DNA of 64,000 nucleotides from an uncultured Myxococcales bacterium. GTDB taxonomy: Bacteria; Myxococcota_A; Bradymonadia; UBA7976; UBA1532. Location of the stretch: positions 1 to 64,000 of the forward strand of contig CAINDO010000565.1 in assembly GCA_903847385.1 (NCBI GenBank), given 5' to 3'. The position numbers and the translations under genes are program-made. How positions within the stretch are numbered: position 1 is the stretch's first letter; each line of letters opens with the position of its first letter. Shown one piece after another: positions 1 through 7,452 of this stretch. A model generated the notes under the pieces. That model was not told the origin of the DNA. It saw nothing but the letters and a program-made list of their open reading frames with translations, and did no database searches.

Positions 1-774
1 CCCACGGGGGACGCCCGCCCGCCCTCGACGGACGCGATCGCGGCACCCGCCGGGGACGCGGTCGTCGGACCTGCCGGGGACGCCGGAGAGCGCCCGGACG
101 CCGTCGGGCCCGCCGCGGATGTCGGCGCGCCCCCGGCCGACGCCGCCGCGCCCTGCACGCCGGAGGCTCCGTGCGAGGCCGCCTGCGACCGCGACCTGAC
201 CAACGCGGCCTGGGTGCACCTGGCCGCCGATCCGCTGATGAACGCCCGCCCCGAGGTCGTGACCGGCACGCTGCTCTCGGACGCGCGCATGCCCGGCGGC
301 GTGGGGCGGCGCTTCGAGCTCGCGCTGGACGACGGCACGGTGCGTGGTTTCGTGTACGTGATCCCGGCGCCGTCGACGCTGCCCTTCGCGCTCGGAGAGA
401 CCGTGCGCTTCGAGGCCACGGGGCTCCAGGAGCCGGGGATCGACGGCCACGCGACGCTCTCCGGGCCCGAGGGGGTGCGGCTGGCGGTGATCAACCGGCG
501 CGGCGGCGAGCCCACGACGACGCTCGGGCTGCCGCTGGACATCGAGGATCTGGGCTGCGGCCCCACGCTGGTGGGCAACTGTCTGCTGGCGATGCCGGCC
601 ACGCTGATCGTCCACGCGGCGGGGAGCCCGCCCGTCATCGCGCACACGGGCGACACCTTCGCGTTCGGGGGCTGGGACGTCCACGTGGCGCGGGTCTACC
701 GGGACGCCAACGCTTGCGAGCCGGCCCTCCACGACCTGTACGCCAACCTGCTGCTCACGCGGGGGCGACCGTGA
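1..774 (+). CDS. C-terminal part of a secreted/lipoprotein of unknown function with Asp/Ala/Pro-rich linker (5' truncated by window)
   Basis: Frame 1 is open from base 1 (PTGDARPPSTDAIAAPAGDA...) to TGA 772-774; PDA-type linker then a globular domain. Confidence 0.75.
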   Translation, partial: PTGDARPPSTDAIAAPAGDAVVGPAGDAGERPDAVGPAADVGAPPADAAAPCTPEAPCEAACDRDLTNAAWVHLAADPLMNARPEVVTGTLLSDARMPGGVGRRFELALDDGTVRGFVYVIPAPSTLPFALGETVRFEATGLQEPGIDGHATLSGPEGVRLAVINRRGGEPTTTLGLPLDIEDLGCGPTLVGNCLLAMPATLIVHAAGSPPVIAHTGDTFAFGGWDVHVARVYRDANACEPALHDLYANLLLTRGRP

Positions 775-841: not shown

Positions 842-1435
842 ATGAACCCGCAGAGCTCCGAGCCCGGGACGGACGAACCCGCGGCCCTGGTGCACGCCCA
901 CGCGGCCGAGGTGGTCCGCGTGCTGCGCGCGGGGTTCACCTGGCGGAAGAAGACGAATCAGGGTGTGCAGCATGCCGTACATCGCGTGGACAGCGTGTTC
1001 GAGGCCGAGGACGTGTGCCACGAGGCCATCGCCATCGTGCTCCGGCAGATGCGCAACGGGCGCTTCGACCGCACCCGGCCCGTGCGCCCGTATCTCATGC
1101 GCATCGCCACGAACCTGGCCCTGCGGCGGGCCCGCCTCGCCGCGCGCGAGGTCCCCACGGAGGTCGTTCTGCTCGAGGGGCGACCCGTCGAGAGCGGCCC
1201 GGCGCCCGATCCGCTGGTGGACGCCGAGCGGGACGCGCTGGTGCGCGACTTCGTCGGGCAGCTCGACACGGGGGAGCGCGCCGTGTTGCGGTTGACCTTC
1301 GAGGCGGGCGAGAGTCAGGCCGCGGCCGCGGGCGCGCTGGGCCTGTCGCGGGATCAGGTCTACCGCACGATGGTGCGCATCCGGACGGCCGCGCTGCGGT
1401 TCTTCCGGGAGCGGGGGCATCTCGATGACGCATGA
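842..1435 (+). CDS. RNA polymerase sigma-70 family (ECF-like) sigma factor
   Basis: 197 aa; region 2-like (FEAEDVCHEAIAIVLRQMRNGRFDRTRPVRPYLMRIATNLALRRAR) and region 4-like HTH (LDTGERAVLRLTFEAGESQAAAAGALGLSRDQVYRTMVRIR). Confidence 0.85.
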   Translation: MNPQSSEPGTDEPAALVHAHAAEVVRVLRAGFTWRKKTNQGVQHAVHRVDSVFEAEDVCHEAIAIVLRQMRNGRFDRTRPVRPYLMRIATNLALRRARLAAREVPTEVVLLEGRPVESGPAPDPLVDAERDALVRDFVGQLDTGERAVLRLTFEAGESQAAAAGALGLSRDQVYRTMVRIRTAALRFFRERGHLDDA

Positions 1436-2198
1436 CGACTGCCGGGCGCTGCTGGGGCGCCACTTCACCGAGGGCGACCTGTCGGGCCTGCAGCAGCAGG
1501 CGATGCGGAGCCACCTGCGCGGCTGTGGCGACTGCCGCACGGCGTTCGACGCCCACGCCGAGGCCGAGGCGAACCTGGGCCCCCACGCGGCGGCGGAGCG
1601 CATGGCCCGGGAGCATGCCCATTGGCGCCCCCCTGCCGAGCCCGGGCGGCTGAAGCGGCGCCTGCTCACCTTCGGGACCGCGGGTCTGCTGGCCGCGGGG
1701 CTGGCCTTCGCGCTGGGGCGGACCGCGAGCGCGCCGCCCCCTGCGGACGACGAGGTTCGGGCGCGGGGCGGCGTGAGCGGTCCGGACGCGATGGCCTGGG
1801 TGGCGCTCCACCGGCAGCGCGGCGACGCCATGGAGCCGCTCGGACGGACCATGGCGCCCGACGACGCCCTGCTCGTGGCCTACACCAACCGCGCCGAGAG
1901 CACGGCGACCTTCCTGGCCGTCGCCGCCCGCGACGCCGCCGGTCACATCCACTGGCTGTACCCGGCCTGGGAGGACCCCGCGGCCGCGCCCAAGAGCGTG
2001 TCCATCGCGCAGGGCGTGGCCGACGAGGAGCTGCCCGACGCCGTGATGCCCCGCCCCCCGGCCGGTCCCCTGGAGATCTGCGCGCTGTTCACCCGCGCGC
2101 CGCTGGACGTGCCCAAGGTCGACGCCGCGCTGGAGAAGGGCGGCGAGTGGCCCGCCGCCGAGGCCATCGACTGCCACATGGTCCGGGTGGAGCCGTGA
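1425..2198 (+). CDS. Anti-sigma factor: zf-HC2-like N-terminus, one TM helix, DUF4384-like C-terminal domain
   Basis: 257 aa; H-x3-C-x2-C motif (HLRGCGDCRTAF), TM GTAGLLAAGLAFALG, C-terminal DALLVAYTNRAESTATFLAVAARDAAGHIHWLYPAW typical of DUF4384-like domains; overlaps the sigma factor stop. Confidence 0.75.
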   Translation: MTHDDCRALLGRHFTEGDLSGLQQQAMRSHLRGCGDCRTAFDAHAEAEANLGPHAAAERMAREHAHWRPPAEPGRLKRRLLTFGTAGLLAAGLAFALGRTASAPPPADDEVRARGGVSGPDAMAWVALHRQRGDAMEPLGRTMAPDDALLVAYTNRAESTATFLAVAARDAAGHIHWLYPAWEDPAAAPKSVSIAQGVADEELPDAVMPRPPAGPLEICALFTRAPLDVPKVDAALEKGGEWPAAEAIDCHMVRVEP

Positions 2199-3667
2199 CG
2201 CGCACCCTCGCGTTCGCGCTGTCGACGCTGGCGCTCTCGGCCGGCGCCGCGCGGGCCGAGCCGGACGTGGCGCGGTTCGTCGTGGCGGTGGGCTTCAACG
2301 AGGCGCCGGAGCGGGACTCGCTGCGCTACGCGGACGACGACGCCGCCCGGGTCTTCGAGCTGCTGGGGCCCGGGGCCGAGGGCGCGGCCCTGCACGCGGC
2401 CTTCGACGCCGAGTCGCAGGCGCTGTTCGCCGGCATGACCGCCGAGGCGCGCCCGCCCACGCTGGCGGCGCTCACGGCCACGCTCGCGCAGATGAACGCG
2501 CGGGTGGCCGAGGCGCGAAGGGCCGGGCGCCGGACGGAGCTGTTCTTCTTCTACGCCGGCCACGGAGACGTCGACGACGGCCGCGGGCGCGTCTACCTGG
2601 CGGACGGCGCGCTCGACCGGGCGTTTCTCGAGCAGTCGCTGCTGGACGTGCCCGGGCGCGCGGACCGGGTGCACGTGGCCGTCGACGCCTGCAAGAGCTA
2701 CTTCCTGGTGGCGGGGCGCGGGCCCGGTGGCGCGCGGCGGCCCGTGGCGGGGCCCTTCGCCGGCCCCGTGCGGCGGCCGGGCGTGGGTTACCTGCTCTCG
2801 ACCTCGACGGACGCGGACGCCCACGAGTGGGGCGCCATCGGCGGCGGCGTGTTCTCGCACCTGCTGCGCTCGGCGATGCTGGGCGCCGCGGACATCGACA
2901 CGGACGGGCAGGTCACCTACGAGGAGGTCGGCGCGTTCATGGGCGCGGCGACGGAGGGGGTGACGGCGGGCCCGTTCCGGCCGAACGTGTTCGTGCGCGC
3001 CCCCCCGGAGGACGCCCGGGCCTCGCTGCTGCGGCTCGCCACGGTCGCGTTCACGCCGCTGCGCATCGAGTCCGCCAGCGCCGGCCGCCTGACCATCGTG
3101 GACCAGCGCGGGCTGCGCTGGGCCGAGGCGCACAAGGCCGGCGGCGCCCCCCTGGTGATGCACCTGCTCTCCGGGCGTCGGTACGAGGTCCGCATGCCCC
3201 CCCGGCGCGCCGAGGTCGAGGCCGCGGGCGCGCCCGTGGAGCTGGCCGCCCTGCCCGAGGCGGGCGCGACGCTGGTGGCCACGCGCGGCGAGGCCCACCG
3301 CGCGCTCGAGGGCCTGTATGGCGCGCCCTTCTCCCCGGACGTCGTGCGCGGGTATCGACTCGGCAACTCCGACGGCGCGCGGCTGGCGGCCGACGCCGTC
3401 GTGCCCGAGGGGCGCGGCGTTCCCCCGGACGAGACCCCCTGGATGAACCCGACGCTGCTCGGCGTGGGCGCGGCGGGCCTCGTGGCCGGCGGGGTGCTGG
3501 CCGTCTTCGCCGCCGATGCCCACGCCGACGCCGCGGACGCACCGCAGAACCGCCGCGCGGATCTGACCGACCGGGGCAACGCCCTGACCTACGGCGCGGG
3601 CGGGGCGTTCGCGGTCGGCGCCGCGGCGTTGGGCTGGGCGGCCGCGCGCCTGTGGACCGCGCCGTGA
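2195..3667 (+). CDS. Secreted, membrane-anchored caspase-family (peptidase C14) protein with EF-hand-like insert
   Basis: GTG start in a 4-nt GTGA overlap; signal peptide; catalytic motifs FFYAGHGD (His codon 2561-2563) and VDACKSYF (Cys codon 2690-2692); EF-hand-like DIDTDGQVTYEE; two C-terminal TM helices. Confidence 0.85.
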   Translation: MTRTLAFALSTLALSAGAARAEPDVARFVVAVGFNEAPERDSLRYADDDAARVFELLGPGAEGAALHAAFDAESQALFAGMTAEARPPTLAALTATLAQMNARVAEARRAGRRTELFFFYAGHGDVDDGRGRVYLADGALDRAFLEQSLLDVPGRADRVHVAVDACKSYFLVAGRGPGGARRPVAGPFAGPVRRPGVGYLLSTSTDADAHEWGAIGGGVFSHLLRSAMLGAADIDTDGQVTYEEVGAFMGAATEGVTAGPFRPNVFVRAPPEDARASLLRLATVAFTPLRIESASAGRLTIVDQRGLRWAEAHKAGGAPLVMHLLSGRRYEVRMPPRRAEVEAAGAPVELAALPEAGATLVATRGEAHRALEGLYGAPFSPDVVRGYRLGNSDGARLAADAVVPEGRGVPPDETPWMNPTLLGVGAAGLVAGGVLAVFAADAHADAADAPQNRRADLTDRGNALTYGAGGAFAVGAAALGWAAARLWTAP

Positions 3668-5712
3668 GGCGAGGCGGCTCGGCGCTCCTGCTCGTCGCGC
3701 TGGCGGTCCACGGCTGCATCCGTGGCACGCCCTCGCTCGACGCCGCGCCCTGCCCCTGCGTGGACGACTACGTGTGCTGCGAGGCGCTCGATCGCTGCCT
3801 GCGCGCGGACGAGGTCTGCCCGGGACTCGCGCCGGACGCGTCGCCCGACGCCTCGACGACGCGCGACGCTTCGCCGGCGCCGGACGCTGCGCCCCGCCCC
3901 GACGCCGCAGCCGCCCCGGACGCCGCCGACGCCGGCCTCGCGGTCGTCTCCCTGACCCCCGCCGAGGGGCCCCGCGAGGGCGGGACCACCGTCGACCTCG
4001 TCGGCGCGGGGTTCGGCGAGGCCCCCGAGGTCCGGTTCGGGCTGCGCCCGGCCGCCTCCGTGGAGCGCCTGGACGACCGCCGCCTGCGCGTCGTCACGCC
4101 CCCCGGCCCCTGGGACGTCTCCGCCGTCGACGTGGTCGTGATGCAGGGCGACGCGGCCGTCGTGGTGGCGGGCGCGTACCGCTACGTGCTGCCGGCGCTC
4201 GTCGACGCGACGGAGGCCAGCGGGCTGAGCGGCGGGCGGGGCATCTCCGTGACCGTGTTCGACGCCGACGGCGATGGTCACCGCGATCTGTTCACGGCGC
4301 GCACGACGCCGGACTCGCCGCCCGAGTGGCGGGGCGCGCCGGGGCTGAGCTTCACGCCCGCGGCGGAGGGCGCGGCCTGGGCGGCGGTGCCGTACTTCGA
4401 GTCCGCGGTGCCGGTGGATCTGGACGCGCGCGACCCCCTGGAGCTGGTGGTGCTGCGGGCCTGGACGCCGGTGCTGGAGCGCCCCTACGTGGTCGACCGT
4501 TTCGACGCCCCCGAGGCGAGCCTCACCTCGATGCCCGTGGTCGACGCGGCCTCGTCCTGGGACGGCCTCTGCCCCCTGGACCTGGACGGCGACGGCGACA
4601 CGGACCTGGCCGGCGTGCGCATCGCCCCGCTGGGCGAGGCGGTCGTGAAGACCTCGGCATCGGTTTTCCTGAATGAGAACGGTGATTTGCGGGCCGCGCC
4701 GCCAGGGTTCGATCTGGCGCTCCCCGGTGTGGCGACGGACGCACCGACCTCGGGGGCGCTGGCGGTCGACTTCGACGCCGACGGTTGGGTGGATCTGACC
4801 CTCGTCCTGGGGGGCGTGCCCTGGCTGTGGCGGGGCACCCCCGAGGGCCTGCGCCTGGTGCCGGACGCGTTCCCGACGCTGCCGCCGGGCGTCTTCTTCG
4901 GCGCTCCGCTGGCCGGCGACCTCGACGCCGACGGCGCCCTGGACCTCCTGTTCTGGAACGCCGCCGTCGGGCCCGAGTCGTGGTTCAGGGGCGGCACGTT
5001 CGTCTACCGCGGGCACGGCGCGCGCTTCACGCTCGAGGCCCCCTGGCGTTGGCCCGGACCGCCCACGGTCTGCCCGGACGAACTCGACCCGTCGGCGACG
5101 CTCCCCTCGGGTTTCGGTGGCGGGGCGCTGGCCGATCTGGACCTGGACGGAGACCTGGACCTCGTCCTGCCCGCGCCGAGCGATCCCTGCCCGGTACCCG
5201 CGCGCTGGGCGGAGAGCGGCCGGGTGGACACCGGCGAGGCCTTCGTCGCCGTCCACGACATCGGCGCCGACCTGCCGCGCCGAATGGCCGGCACCCTGGC
5301 CGACGACCTCGACGCGGACGGCGACGTGGACCTGGTCGCCAACGCCTGGTTCTACAGCGACCGCACCCGCCTGTACCGCAACAACACGGTCGAGAACCGG
5401 GGCACGACGGGGGCGGCGGCGGGGGGCTTTCTGCGGGTCACCGTGAAGAATCGGCAGGGCTTCGTGCCCTTCGGCGCGCGCGTGGAGCTGGATCTGGACG
5501 GCCCGGCCGACGCCCCCGATTGGGCGCCCGGGCCGGGCCGGCTGGCGGTGCGGGTGGTGGGCGGCGGGGGGAACGAGGCCTACGGCGACGGCGTCGTCAG
5601 CTTCGGCACGGGCACGGCGCGGGGGCCGTTCCATCTGCGCGTCCTGCTGCCGGACGGGCCCCTGGCGGTACGGGTCGAGGGATTCGACCGGACGGTCGCG
5701 CTCGGACCGTGA
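3664..5712 (+). CDS. Surface lipoprotein with IPT/TIG-like domain and FG-GAP/VCBS repeats
   Basis: GTG start in a 4-nt overlap; lipobox-like LAVHGC; PDA linker; LTPAEGPREGGTTVDLVGAGFG (IPT/TIG); multiple D-x-D-x-D-G motifs (FDADGDGHRDLF, LDLDGDGDTDLAG, LDADGALDLLFW). Confidence 0.8.
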   Translation: MRRGGSALLLVALAVHGCIRGTPSLDAAPCPCVDDYVCCEALDRCLRADEVCPGLAPDASPDASTTRDASPAPDAAPRPDAAAAPDAADAGLAVVSLTPAEGPREGGTTVDLVGAGFGEAPEVRFGLRPAASVERLDDRRLRVVTPPGPWDVSAVDVVVMQGDAAVVVAGAYRYVLPALVDATEASGLSGGRGISVTVFDADGDGHRDLFTARTTPDSPPEWRGAPGLSFTPAAEGAAWAAVPYFESAVPVDLDARDPLELVVLRAWTPVLERPYVVDRFDAPEASLTSMPVVDAASSWDGLCPLDLDGDGDTDLAGVRIAPLGEAVVKTSASVFLNENGDLRAAPPGFDLALPGVATDAPTSGALAVDFDADGWVDLTLVLGGVPWLWRGTPEGLRLVPDAFPTLPPGVFFGAPLAGDLDADGALDLLFWNAAVGPESWFRGGTFVYRGHGARFTLEAPWRWPGPPTVCPDELDPSATLPSGFGGGALADLDLDGDLDLVLPAPSDPCPVPARWAESGRVDTGEAFVAVHDIGADLPRRMAGTLADDLDADGDVDLVANAWFYSDRTRLYRNNTVENRGTTGAAAGGFLRVTVKNRQGFVPFGARVELDLDGPADAPDWAPGPGRLAVRVVGGGGNEAYGDGVVSFGTGTARGPFHLRVLLPDGPLAVRVEGFDRTVALGP

Positions 5713-5730: not shown

Positions 5731-7452
5731 TCACCAGGTCGCCAGGGCGGCGCGGATCTGCTCGCGGAGCGTCTCCGAGCCGGCCGCGATGATGTCGTCC
5801 GGGTTGAGCGTCGTGGCCGAGTCGATGAACGCGCCGTGCACGTACTCCCGGGGGGTGACGACGCCGGCGACCTTGAAGGGCAGGCGGGTCTCGGCGAAGT
5901 AGCTGCGCCACTGGACACCGTTCCAGCCGTAGCTGCCGCCCTTCCAGGTGTTGCGGACCTGGGCGCGGAAGGCGTTGATCGTGGCGGCGGACTTGCCGAG
6001 CGCGGCGCCCTCGGCGTTGACGATGGCGGTGAACTGCGCGCTGCCGTTGGACATCAGGTTGTAGAACGTCGTCCGGTTGGCCGGGTTCAGCAGGCCGGCC
6101 GCGACGTCCTCGTGGAGCTCGCCGAGGTCCGAGAGGCTGGTGCGGTTGTGGTTGGCCACCATGTCCGCGCCGCAGCCGATGGTGTGCCGGATCGCCGTCG
6201 CGTCCAGGCCGAGGTCGGTCGCCGTGCCGTTGATGTTGGCCTGGCCGAGGAACTCGCGCATGGCCTGCGTGGCCCGGTTGTCCGATTGCTGCATCATGGG
6301 CTGGAGCACGGTCTGCAGCGTCTTGTTCTGGACGGTCGTGCAGGCCGCGATGGTGTTGGGGCAGCTCGTGGCCACGCCGTCCATGCACATGGGCACGATG
6401 CTGTTGAGGCCCAGCGTGCCGGCCTGGACGCGCTCCATGGCCGTCAGGTGATGGAGGACCTTGATGGAGCTGGCCGGCTCGAAGGCGAAGTTCTCGTTGA
6501 CGCCGCCGAGCACGGCGCCACCGACCTGCTTGGCGAACATGCCGAGCTGGCCGTTGGTCTGGGCGCGGAGCAGCGCGCTCACGCGCTTCTCCAGGGCGTT
6601 GCCGTTGTTCATCATCAGCGAGACGTAGCGGGTCGCGCCGTTGACCGTGTAGGGCTCGACGTCGAACACGCGGGCCTTGTTGCGCCCGGCCGTGAAGTTC
6701 ACGTCGTCCATGCTCTGGCCGTAGTACCACCACCAGGTCTCACCGGCGCTGGCGTTCATCACCACGGAGTAGGCGTCGTTGCCGAGGCGCTCGATGTCCG
6801 TGAGGCGGGCGCCGTTGGCCGTGAGCTGCTGGCCGATGAAGGCGGCGTTGACGTTGTAGTAGTGCCACCAGGCCTTCTGGTCGGCCCCGGCGTTGCGGAT
6901 CATGATGGCCGCGTACTTGCGCACGCCGCCTTCGACGTAGCTGCTGAGGTGCGTGACGCGCGCGCCGTTGGCGGTGGCGTTGGCGGCCACCTGGGCCGAG
7001 GTCAGGCCGTAGTACCACCACCAGGCCTTGGCCTGGGCGCCCGTGTTGGGGACCATCACGGCGGCGACCTTGCGCACGCCGTTGATGAAGTAGACCTCGA
7101 GGTCGACGAGGCGGGCGTTGTTGGCCGTCAGGAGCTGGCTGACCTCGGCCTCGGTCTTGCCGTAGTACCACCAGAAGCCGCTCTGGTAGACGCCGGCGTT
7201 GGACACGAAGGCCGCGGCGAAGCGGGCCGGCGACGCCTGCTCGACTTCGATGTCGACCAGGCGATAGCCCTGGTTGATCTTGGCGGTCACGGTGGCGGCG
7301 TCCACGCCGGTCAGCCAGTACCAGCCCGTGGTGGCGGTCTGGTCGCGCTCCTGGGCCTGGGCCTCGGAGGCCCCGGCGAAGGTGCACAGGGCGGCGGCGG
7401 TGGTGGCGACGGCGGCGGCGGCGTGGCGAACGATGCGGCTGAGGGTCTTCAT
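5731..7452 (-). CDS. Secreted beta-lactamase-fold serine hydrolase with about five N-terminal W/Y-rich tandem repeats (BTRD1 / polyglycine-hydrolase-like)
   Basis: 573 aa; signal peptide; about 50-aa repeats (AWWWYYGLTSAQVAANATANGARVTHLSSYVEGGVRKYAAIMI); SxxK-type motif ASSIKVLHHL; beta-lactamase-like C-terminus. Confidence 0.8.
   Translation of the reverse strand: MKTLSRIVRHAAAAVATTAAALCTFAGASEAQAQERDQTATTGWYWLTGVDAATVTAKINQGYRLVDIEVEQASPARFAAAFVSNAGVYQSGFWWYYGKTEAEVSQLLTANNARLVDLEVYFINGVRKVAAVMVPNTGAQAKAWWWYYGLTSAQVAANATANGARVTHLSSYVEGGVRKYAAIMIRNAGADQKAWWHYYNVNAAFIGQQLTANGARLTDIERLGNDAYSVVMNASAGETWWWYYGQSMDDVNFTAGRNKARVFDVEPYTVNGATRYVSLMMNNGNALEKRVSALLRAQTNGQLGMFAKQVGGAVLGGVNENFAFEPASSIKVLHHLTAMERVQAGTLGLNSIVPMCMDGVATSCPNTIAACTTVQNKTLQTVLQPMMQQSDNRATQAMREFLGQANINGTATDLGLDATAIRHTIGCGADMVANHNRTSLSDLGELHEDVAAGLLNPANRTTFYNLMSNGSAQFTAIVNAEGAALGKSAATINAFRAQVRNTWKGGSYGWNGVQWRSYFAETRLPFKVAGVVTPREYVHGAFIDSATTLNPDDIIAAGSETLREQIRAALATW

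Follow-up and report, generated by a model that had tools for sequence, protein, structure and literature searches.

What does a secreted caspase do in an operon with a sigma factor and its anti-sigma factor? The question is raised by the first genes of a stretch of 64,000 nucleotides (hereafter the window) from an uncultured Myxococcales bacterium (assembly GCA_903847385.1, contig CAINDO010000565.1), which corresponds to the start of the 74-kb contig C565 in a genome of 9.5 Mb. Between positions 842 and 5712, four genes are joined by stop-start overlaps (11 nt between the sigma and anti-sigma genes, then GTGA at 2195–2198 and at 3664–3667) and encode an extracytoplasmic function (ECF) sigma factor, an anti-sigma factor, a caspase-family protease and an FG-GAP lipoprotein. 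The open reading frames, the overlaps and the main domains given in a preliminary description of this DNA were all confirmed. The same description proposed that the caspase, possibly responding to calcium, cleaves the anti-sigma factor or the lipoprotein and frees the sigma factor. We show below that the sigma, anti-sigma and caspase genes belong together as a conserved cassette, and we consider it on balance probable that the periplasmic caspase acts as the site-1 protease of the anti-sigma factor. The features of the three genes are the following, all on the + strand, with "TM" for transmembrane.

842–1435 (+): ECF-type sigma-70 factor of 197 amino acids (P0001; Pfam Sigma70_r2, 3.5e-7; NCBIfam TIGR02937, above its cut-off).
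1425–2198 (+): anti-sigma factor with zf-HC2, one TM helix (about residues 79–99, positions 1659–1721) and a DUF4384-like ectodomain (P0002; zf-HC2, 2.7e-5; hydropathy and homologues).
1764–1769 (+): codons of R114-G115, the predicted caspase cleavage site (VRAR/GG, cut at the slash) between the TM helix and the ectodomain, from column conservation.
2195–3667 (+): secreted caspase-family (C14) protease with a signal peptide, a caspase domain, a beta-rich segment and a C-terminal TM hairpin, from homologue alignments and Pfam.
2339–2341 (+): D49, predicted acid of the S1 pocket (equivalent to TbMCA2 Asp95), from conservation, the metacaspase-4 alignment and PMC4357240.
2561–2563 (+): catalytic H123 (101/101).
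2684–2692 (+): D164-A-C166, the predicted second S1 acid (equivalent to TbMCA2 Asp211; D in 100/101) and the catalytic Cys (101/101).
2717–2722 (+): R175-G176 in the loop after the Cys, likely an autoprocessing or substrate-like site, from bacterial caspase alignments.
3449–3655 (+): C-terminal TM hairpin, predicted from hydropathy to anchor the caspase.

The arrangement of these genes was conserved well outside the window. Caspases were first searched in 58 genomes (the genome itself and relatives), with gene calling and profile searches on the fetched DNA, and the succession sigma, anti-sigma, caspase was found in one order and on one strand at 39 of the first 65 caspases; those outside such cassettes were mostly expansions in one genus (G009 and G012). 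When the set was extended to the window and 130 related loci, a caspase gene lay at most 400 nt downstream of 101 of the 110 anti-sigma reading frames, a count in which many loci had been fetched via the caspase, and 93 also had a sigma gene upstream. An independent pair of searches agreed: the anti-sigma profile and the caspase profile were each run against 142 Myxococcota genomes, and nearly all ectodomain anti-sigma matches directly preceded a caspase match, the positions being compared by eye. Because a caspase follows 101 of the 110 anti-sigmas, the gene arrangement is far beyond chance, and sigma, anti-sigma and caspase are the conserved core. A lack of conserved synteny, named in the preliminary description as a ground for giving up the idea, was not observed; synteny was very strong across the fetched loci. 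The cassette is spread over dozens of Myxococcota genomes, with about eight such anti-sigmas in each metagenome-assembled genome (MAG) of Myxococcaceae. In a second phylum, a sample centered on L043 (a Bryobacteraceae MAG, Acidobacteriota) gave five caspases at E<1e-109 in 5 genomes, all five adjoining a sigma and an anti-sigma gene. Plasmid searches with the caspase gave one distant match (Runella) in one search and none in the other. Two unusual layouts were seen, the permuted order caspase, sigma, anti-sigma at L211 (G197, the phylum of L043), and two divergent cassettes at L057, whose sigma genes face away from each other across about 215 bp.

The anti-sigma ectodomain follows the caspase across genomes, because a match to it was present in 50 of the 50 genomes with a cassette-type caspase (E<1e-60), and in only two of the 59 Myxococcota genomes without any caspase match (57 of the 59 were devoid of it). 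The two exceptions were poor anti-sigma candidates: the G116 protein had lost the basic site described below, with no sigma gene detectable in front of it, and the G118 protein is a lipoprotein without TM or zinc-finger features. The first of these (L108) looks like a relic of an anti-sigma ectodomain. The distance matrices of the three proteins were correlated at 0.76–0.84 over 93 cassettes, with a permuted maximum of 0.13, and at 0.77–0.89 when only within-genome pairs were used, which removes species history. Linkage and co-evolution, taken alone, are near certain.

In the window anti-sigma, a zinc motif HxxxCxxC at residue 30 precedes the single TM helix. P0002 thus combines the zinc domain, the one TM helix and the adjoining, here overlapping, ECF sigma gene that characterize class I zf-HC2 anti-sigma factors, and is predicted to be the anti-sigma of its cognate sigma factor. 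The zf-HC2 family was matched by only 13 of 39 homologues, and many divergent relatives had no recognizable zinc finger. The zinc finger and the TM helix of the preliminary description therefore stand; the DUF4384-like domain (PF14326) that it added has no significant match in P0002 itself and a significant one in only 8 of the 39 homologues (6e-5 at best).

The caspase begins with a signal peptide (ARA/EP) and ends with a hydrophobic hairpin whose inner loop is Arg-rich. The preliminary description counted two C-terminal TM helices; the first (residues 419–444) passes a simple hydropathy threshold, and the second (about 464–486) falls below it and was recognized by eye. Given the signal peptide and the hairpin of the caspase, and an anti-sigma in which the TM helix separates the preceding zinc finger from the ectodomain that follows, the caspase domain and the ectodomain are both predicted to be periplasmic. 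The relay proposed earlier, with both on the same side, is supported by this topology, and their placement on opposite sides of the membrane, which would contradict it, was not found. Many relatives have no C-terminal TM helices and show alternating strands instead, often with Phe or Trp at the end. A crude classifier of the caspase C-termini gave 56 beta-like, 17 helical, 22 unclear and 5 truncated. In the AlphaFold model of the homologue L038, the caspase core had a confidence score (predicted local distance difference test, pLDDT) mostly of 70–90, and eight long strands extended over residues 405–556 at about 45–66. Foldseek with this model listed OmpW and the N-terminal barrel of OprF further down, and one caspase homologue matched a Pfam outer-membrane barrel family. 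From these models and matches, a beta-barrel anchored in the outer membrane is likely in many relatives, with modest confidence. The caspases with such a fused C-terminal domain, probably in the outer membrane, occur among L037–L106 (for example L037–L040, L064, L066, L071 and L080).

The window caspase stays below the Pfam C14 cut-off (E 0.17), and 32 of the 41 members of the homologue alignment match C14 (PF00656). The His/Cys dyad, described as intact, proved invariant: H123 and C166 were present in 101 of 101 aligned cassette caspases, as was E211, and the first part of the L038 model matched metacaspase, legumain and caspase structures in Foldseek, which places the dyad of family C14 in a caspase fold. 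D164 was found in 100 of the 101, and D49 in 99 with E in the other two. Both positions align with AtMC4 (metacaspase-4) and match Asp211 and Asp95 of TbMCA2, for which an S1 pocket made of Cys92, Asp95, Ser156 and Asp211 was proposed (PMC4357240), so that the pocket appears acidic. For orthocaspases, cleavage after basic residues has been reported (PMC6426788). From these S1 acids, the cassette caspases are predicted to cut after Arg or Lys.

A residue of this kind stands at one place in the partner. Ahead of the first strand of the ectodomain and after the TM helix, 94 of the 94 aligned caspase-linked anti-sigmas have a basic residue (K 54, R 40), with a small one in the next column (G 87, S 6, A 2); this pair is the most constrained spot of the ectodomain. 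The window reads VRAR114-G115, and K-G is kept in five of the five acidobacterial cassettes. The caspase itself carries [RK]-G some ten residues past the catalytic Cys (R175-G176 in the window), where R-G was invariant among 12 diverse bacterial caspases aligned. The largest subclade has R-x-K-G in both partners (TRxKGG in the caspase, VRxKG in the anti-sigma). Because both partners carry [RK]-G, and R-x-K-G in this subclade, the anti-sigma linker is most naturally read as a copy of the processing sequence of the caspase. R114-G115 is a candidate site for a protease of the specificity predicted above, and supports the part of the earlier proposal that concerned the anti-sigma factor. An R/K covariation between the two proteins (Fisher 3e-13) was also considered.

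The promoters of Myxococcaceae orthologues indicate what the freed sigma factor may control. The element TGTCCY-N13-GGCATA, with an unconserved spacer, precedes the sigma gene and occurs 14 times in four Myxococcaceae genomes, versus once for the reversed control. Four of the 14 sites are those of the cassettes, and eight of the ten others lie 8–9 nt before a gene whose product starts like a lipoprotein. Because the element recurs at cassettes and at lipoprotein genes, this suggests that the Myxococcaceae sigma factor is autoregulated and drives lipoproteins. The short distance to the start codon at these eight genes (among L217–L230, in G178–G181) implies very short or leaderless transcripts. 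The preliminary description suggested a search for an autoregulated ECF promoter upstream of 842. A promoter is evident in these orthologues, and none could be demonstrated in the window: the element that it shares with L048 (GCGCAA-N16-CTATG) recurs at a single other place in the genome, where no long reading frame follows. This element overlaps the sigma start codon at 842. If it is a promoter, the true start lies downstream (for example GTG at 890), and the sigma gene may indeed begin further downstream than 842.

We propose the following model. The zf-HC2 domain of the anti-sigma would tether the ECF sigma factor to the inner membrane. The caspase would be exported and anchored, in the window through the TM hairpin and in many relatives through a predicted barrel in the outer membrane. 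On an envelope cue, the caspase would cut the anti-sigma just outside the membrane, after the basic residue of [RK]-G (between R114 and G115). Removal of the bulky ectodomain would then let a site-2 protease such as RseP complete the release of the sigma factor, which would switch on its own cassette and surface lipoproteins. We infer the cleavage, its position and its trigger around the observed linkage, co-inheritance, co-occurrence, sequence-based topology, conserved catalytic and S1 residues, conserved basic site and promoter reuse in Myxococcaceae. The genome (G000) contains several matches to the site-2 (M50) protease family PF02163, which is uninformative as all 14 control genomes have one. 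A wider form of the model is more speculative, and we hold it as doubtful though conceivable: in a widespread relay from the outer to the inner membrane, a caspase anchored by an eight-stranded outer-membrane barrel or by a hairpin would sense the envelope and cut the anti-sigma at a copy of its own autoprocessing sequence, so that the sigma factor resets the surface lipoproteins.

Other observations bear on cleavage at this site, several of them against it. Seven anti-sigma-like proteins have no adjacent caspase, after two controls were dropped (L107, at a contig edge, and L113, a lipoprotein without anti-sigma features). In favor of the model, the basic pair is gone in L108 (genome without a caspase match) and L109 (genome without a cassette-type caspase). 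Against it, the pair is also lost in L111, although its genome has cassettes, and it is kept in the four others (L110, L114, L115 and L116), whose genomes hold other caspases. The position of [RK]-G is fixed relative to the ectodomain and not to the membrane (0–35 residues from the TM helix), and the pair could have a structural role. AlphaFold models of the window anti-sigma (5 sequences) covered only the zf-HC2 and TM part and gave no ectodomain. An aligner can favor basic-small columns through gap placement, and L050 reads PRIG and L057 PRMG, with R-I and R-M at the site. An alignment-free count was therefore made, in which [RK]G occurred within 45 residues after the TM helix in 86 of 95 anti-sigmas, versus 45±4 in shuffled linkers. 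On the tree, the R/K covariation came mainly from one deep split and one tip (L165) and has little weight; the agreement being mostly one old split, only the shared pattern was used.

Some of these points would fit a caspase that is an output of the sigma factor and not its activator, processing other envelope proteins, with [RK]-G having a structural role where the ectodomain starts. Target genes are frequent members of ECF operons, and both the tie of the basic pair to the ectodomain and its persistence in four orphans agree with this explanation. It accounts less well for the fact that the anti-sigma ectodomain, not just the sigma factor, tracks the caspase across genomes, for a near-universal basic residue that fits the predicted specificity, and for an order from anti-sigma to caspase kept at most loci of two phyla; we consider it unlikely. 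The mimicry of the caspase loop by the anti-sigma site and the correlated evolution of the partners could also mean that the ectodomain is a substrate-like inhibitor with [RK]-G lying in the active site, a signal-induced dissociation, and not a cut, freeing both proteins. In a linker, such a basic-Gly pair is more suggestive of a substrate, and we know of no precedent for a caspase inhibitor within an anti-sigma factor, which makes this explanation quite improbable. Finally, the cassette caspases might execute autolysis in programmed cell death or development, the sigma/anti-sigma pair only setting their dose, as was proposed in general terms for the metacaspases of M. xanthus (PMC3501461). 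We judge this very improbable, given caspases that look exported and anchored, many cassettes per genome, and Myxococcaceae promoter sites that lead to lipoproteins. Of all these explanations, the caspase as site-1 protease of the anti-sigma has the best support.

Sigma-70/metacaspase operons were reported in 2012 by Asplund-Samuelsson et al. (PMC3501461), with four of the five M. xanthus metacaspases in sigma-factor operons and further cases in Anaeromyxobacter, Haliangium, Sorangium, Ralstonia and Fibrobacter. The gene association is the same; the text there has no anti-sigma, cleavage site, mechanism or relay. If the model holds, the one-TM anti-sigma, the ectodomain cut near the membrane and the site-2 protease step would be shared with RseA/DegS/RseP and RsiW/PrsW (PMC8844934), whereas the predicted site-1 protease is here a caspase-family cysteine protease, encoded beside each anti-sigma and often probably residing in the outer membrane. 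In the type III-E CRISPR (clustered regularly interspaced short palindromic repeats) system Csx29/Csx30/CASP-sigma, a caspase-fold protease also cleaves a protein that inhibits an ECF sigma factor (PMC10028731), a cleavage that is predicted here; that protease is RNA-guided and of CHAT type and its inhibitor soluble and intracellular, whereas the cassettes have an exported protease, a TM anti-sigma and no CRISPR. ECF54 (PMC8999054), whose genetic context includes CHAT-domain proteins, shares a proposed proteolytic control and a caspase-like protein nearby, but has no anti-sigma and involves another protease family. With the metacaspases and orthocaspases (C14B; TbMCA2, AtMC4, GSU0716) the cassette caspases share the His/Cys dyad, the S1 acids and the predicted Arg/Lys specificity, to which they add a signal peptide, a TM hairpin or beta-barrel-like anchor and a dedicated anti-sigma partner. 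We found no proposal of anti-sigma cleavage by an exported caspase as site-1 protease, nor of a caspase fused to an outer-membrane barrel, in a literature search that left subscription papers mostly outside. New here are the basic-small site, the S1 acids with the shared [RK]-G, the co-occurrence of ectodomain and caspase, the barrel-like ends and the promoter reuse in Myxococcaceae.

Bacterial caspases are abundant in myxobacteria and have mostly been viewed as candidate cell-death enzymes for which no substrates are known. Dozens of them now gain a specific, directly testable candidate substrate and cut site, which links caspase chemistry to the control of envelope ECF sigma factors, with M. 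xanthus and its four reported sigma-metacaspase operons as a cultivable organism. If true, the model adds a new class of site-1 proteases and an exported parallel to type III-E CRISPR, where a caspase-like protein controls a sigma inhibitor; in the wider relay, caspase-type proteases would be ordinary bacterial signal transducers.

The remaining features of the locus are clade-specific, shared with unlinked caspases, or flanking.

1–774 (+): 3' part of an upstream gene for a secreted protein (phmmer 1.3e-75 against L048_5), with a 67-bp gap before the sigma gene.
2891–2926 (+): EF-hand-like loop DIDTDGQVTYEE, residues 233–244 of the caspase (acidic positions 1, 5 and 12 conserved).
3664–5712 (+): FG-GAP/TIG lipoprotein, clade-specific fourth gene, alternative GTG start at 3652 (P0004; FG-GAP_3, 2e-14; TIG, 1e-6).

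The preliminary description named both an EF-hand-like loop and a possible calcium response. D1, D5 and E12 were found in 94–100% of the cassette caspases, and only 56 of 96 had the complete canonical loop; PF00036 scored 13.8 bits, under its cut-off of 25.4. Because D..DG.V...E segments of this kind also occur in several unlinked bacterial caspases, the loop is not special to the operon, and it was rejected as specific evidence of Ca2+ sensing. A calcium response of the caspase is possible, and calcium control is unsupported.

The fourth gene was seen in three cassettes only (the window, L048 and L049), so it was rejected as a core component; the other cassettes have unrelated genes immediately downstream, with three larger families among them. 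The FG-GAP_3 and TIG matches agree with the lipoprotein described earlier, as do the good lipoboxes of the two orthologues (QAGC and VAGC); that of the window (AVHGC) is atypical. Cleavage of this lipoprotein by the caspase, the other half of the early proposal, is likewise unsupported. A lipobox was present in 19 of 50 immediate downstream genes versus 86 of 727 other genes.

The gene at 1–774 has an orthologue with the same synteny in a genome of the same genus (L048) and may share a transcript with the cassette. On the other side, a gene convergent with the cassette (5731–7452, − strand) encodes a beta-lactamase-fold protein with N-terminal Trp/Tyr-rich repeats of BTRD1 type. The genus mentioned above shows a large expansion of secreted caspases without an anti-sigma (L068–L077 in G012; L067, L074 and L083 in G009), often beside a protein of 635–645 amino acids on the opposite strand and sometimes in tandem pairs.

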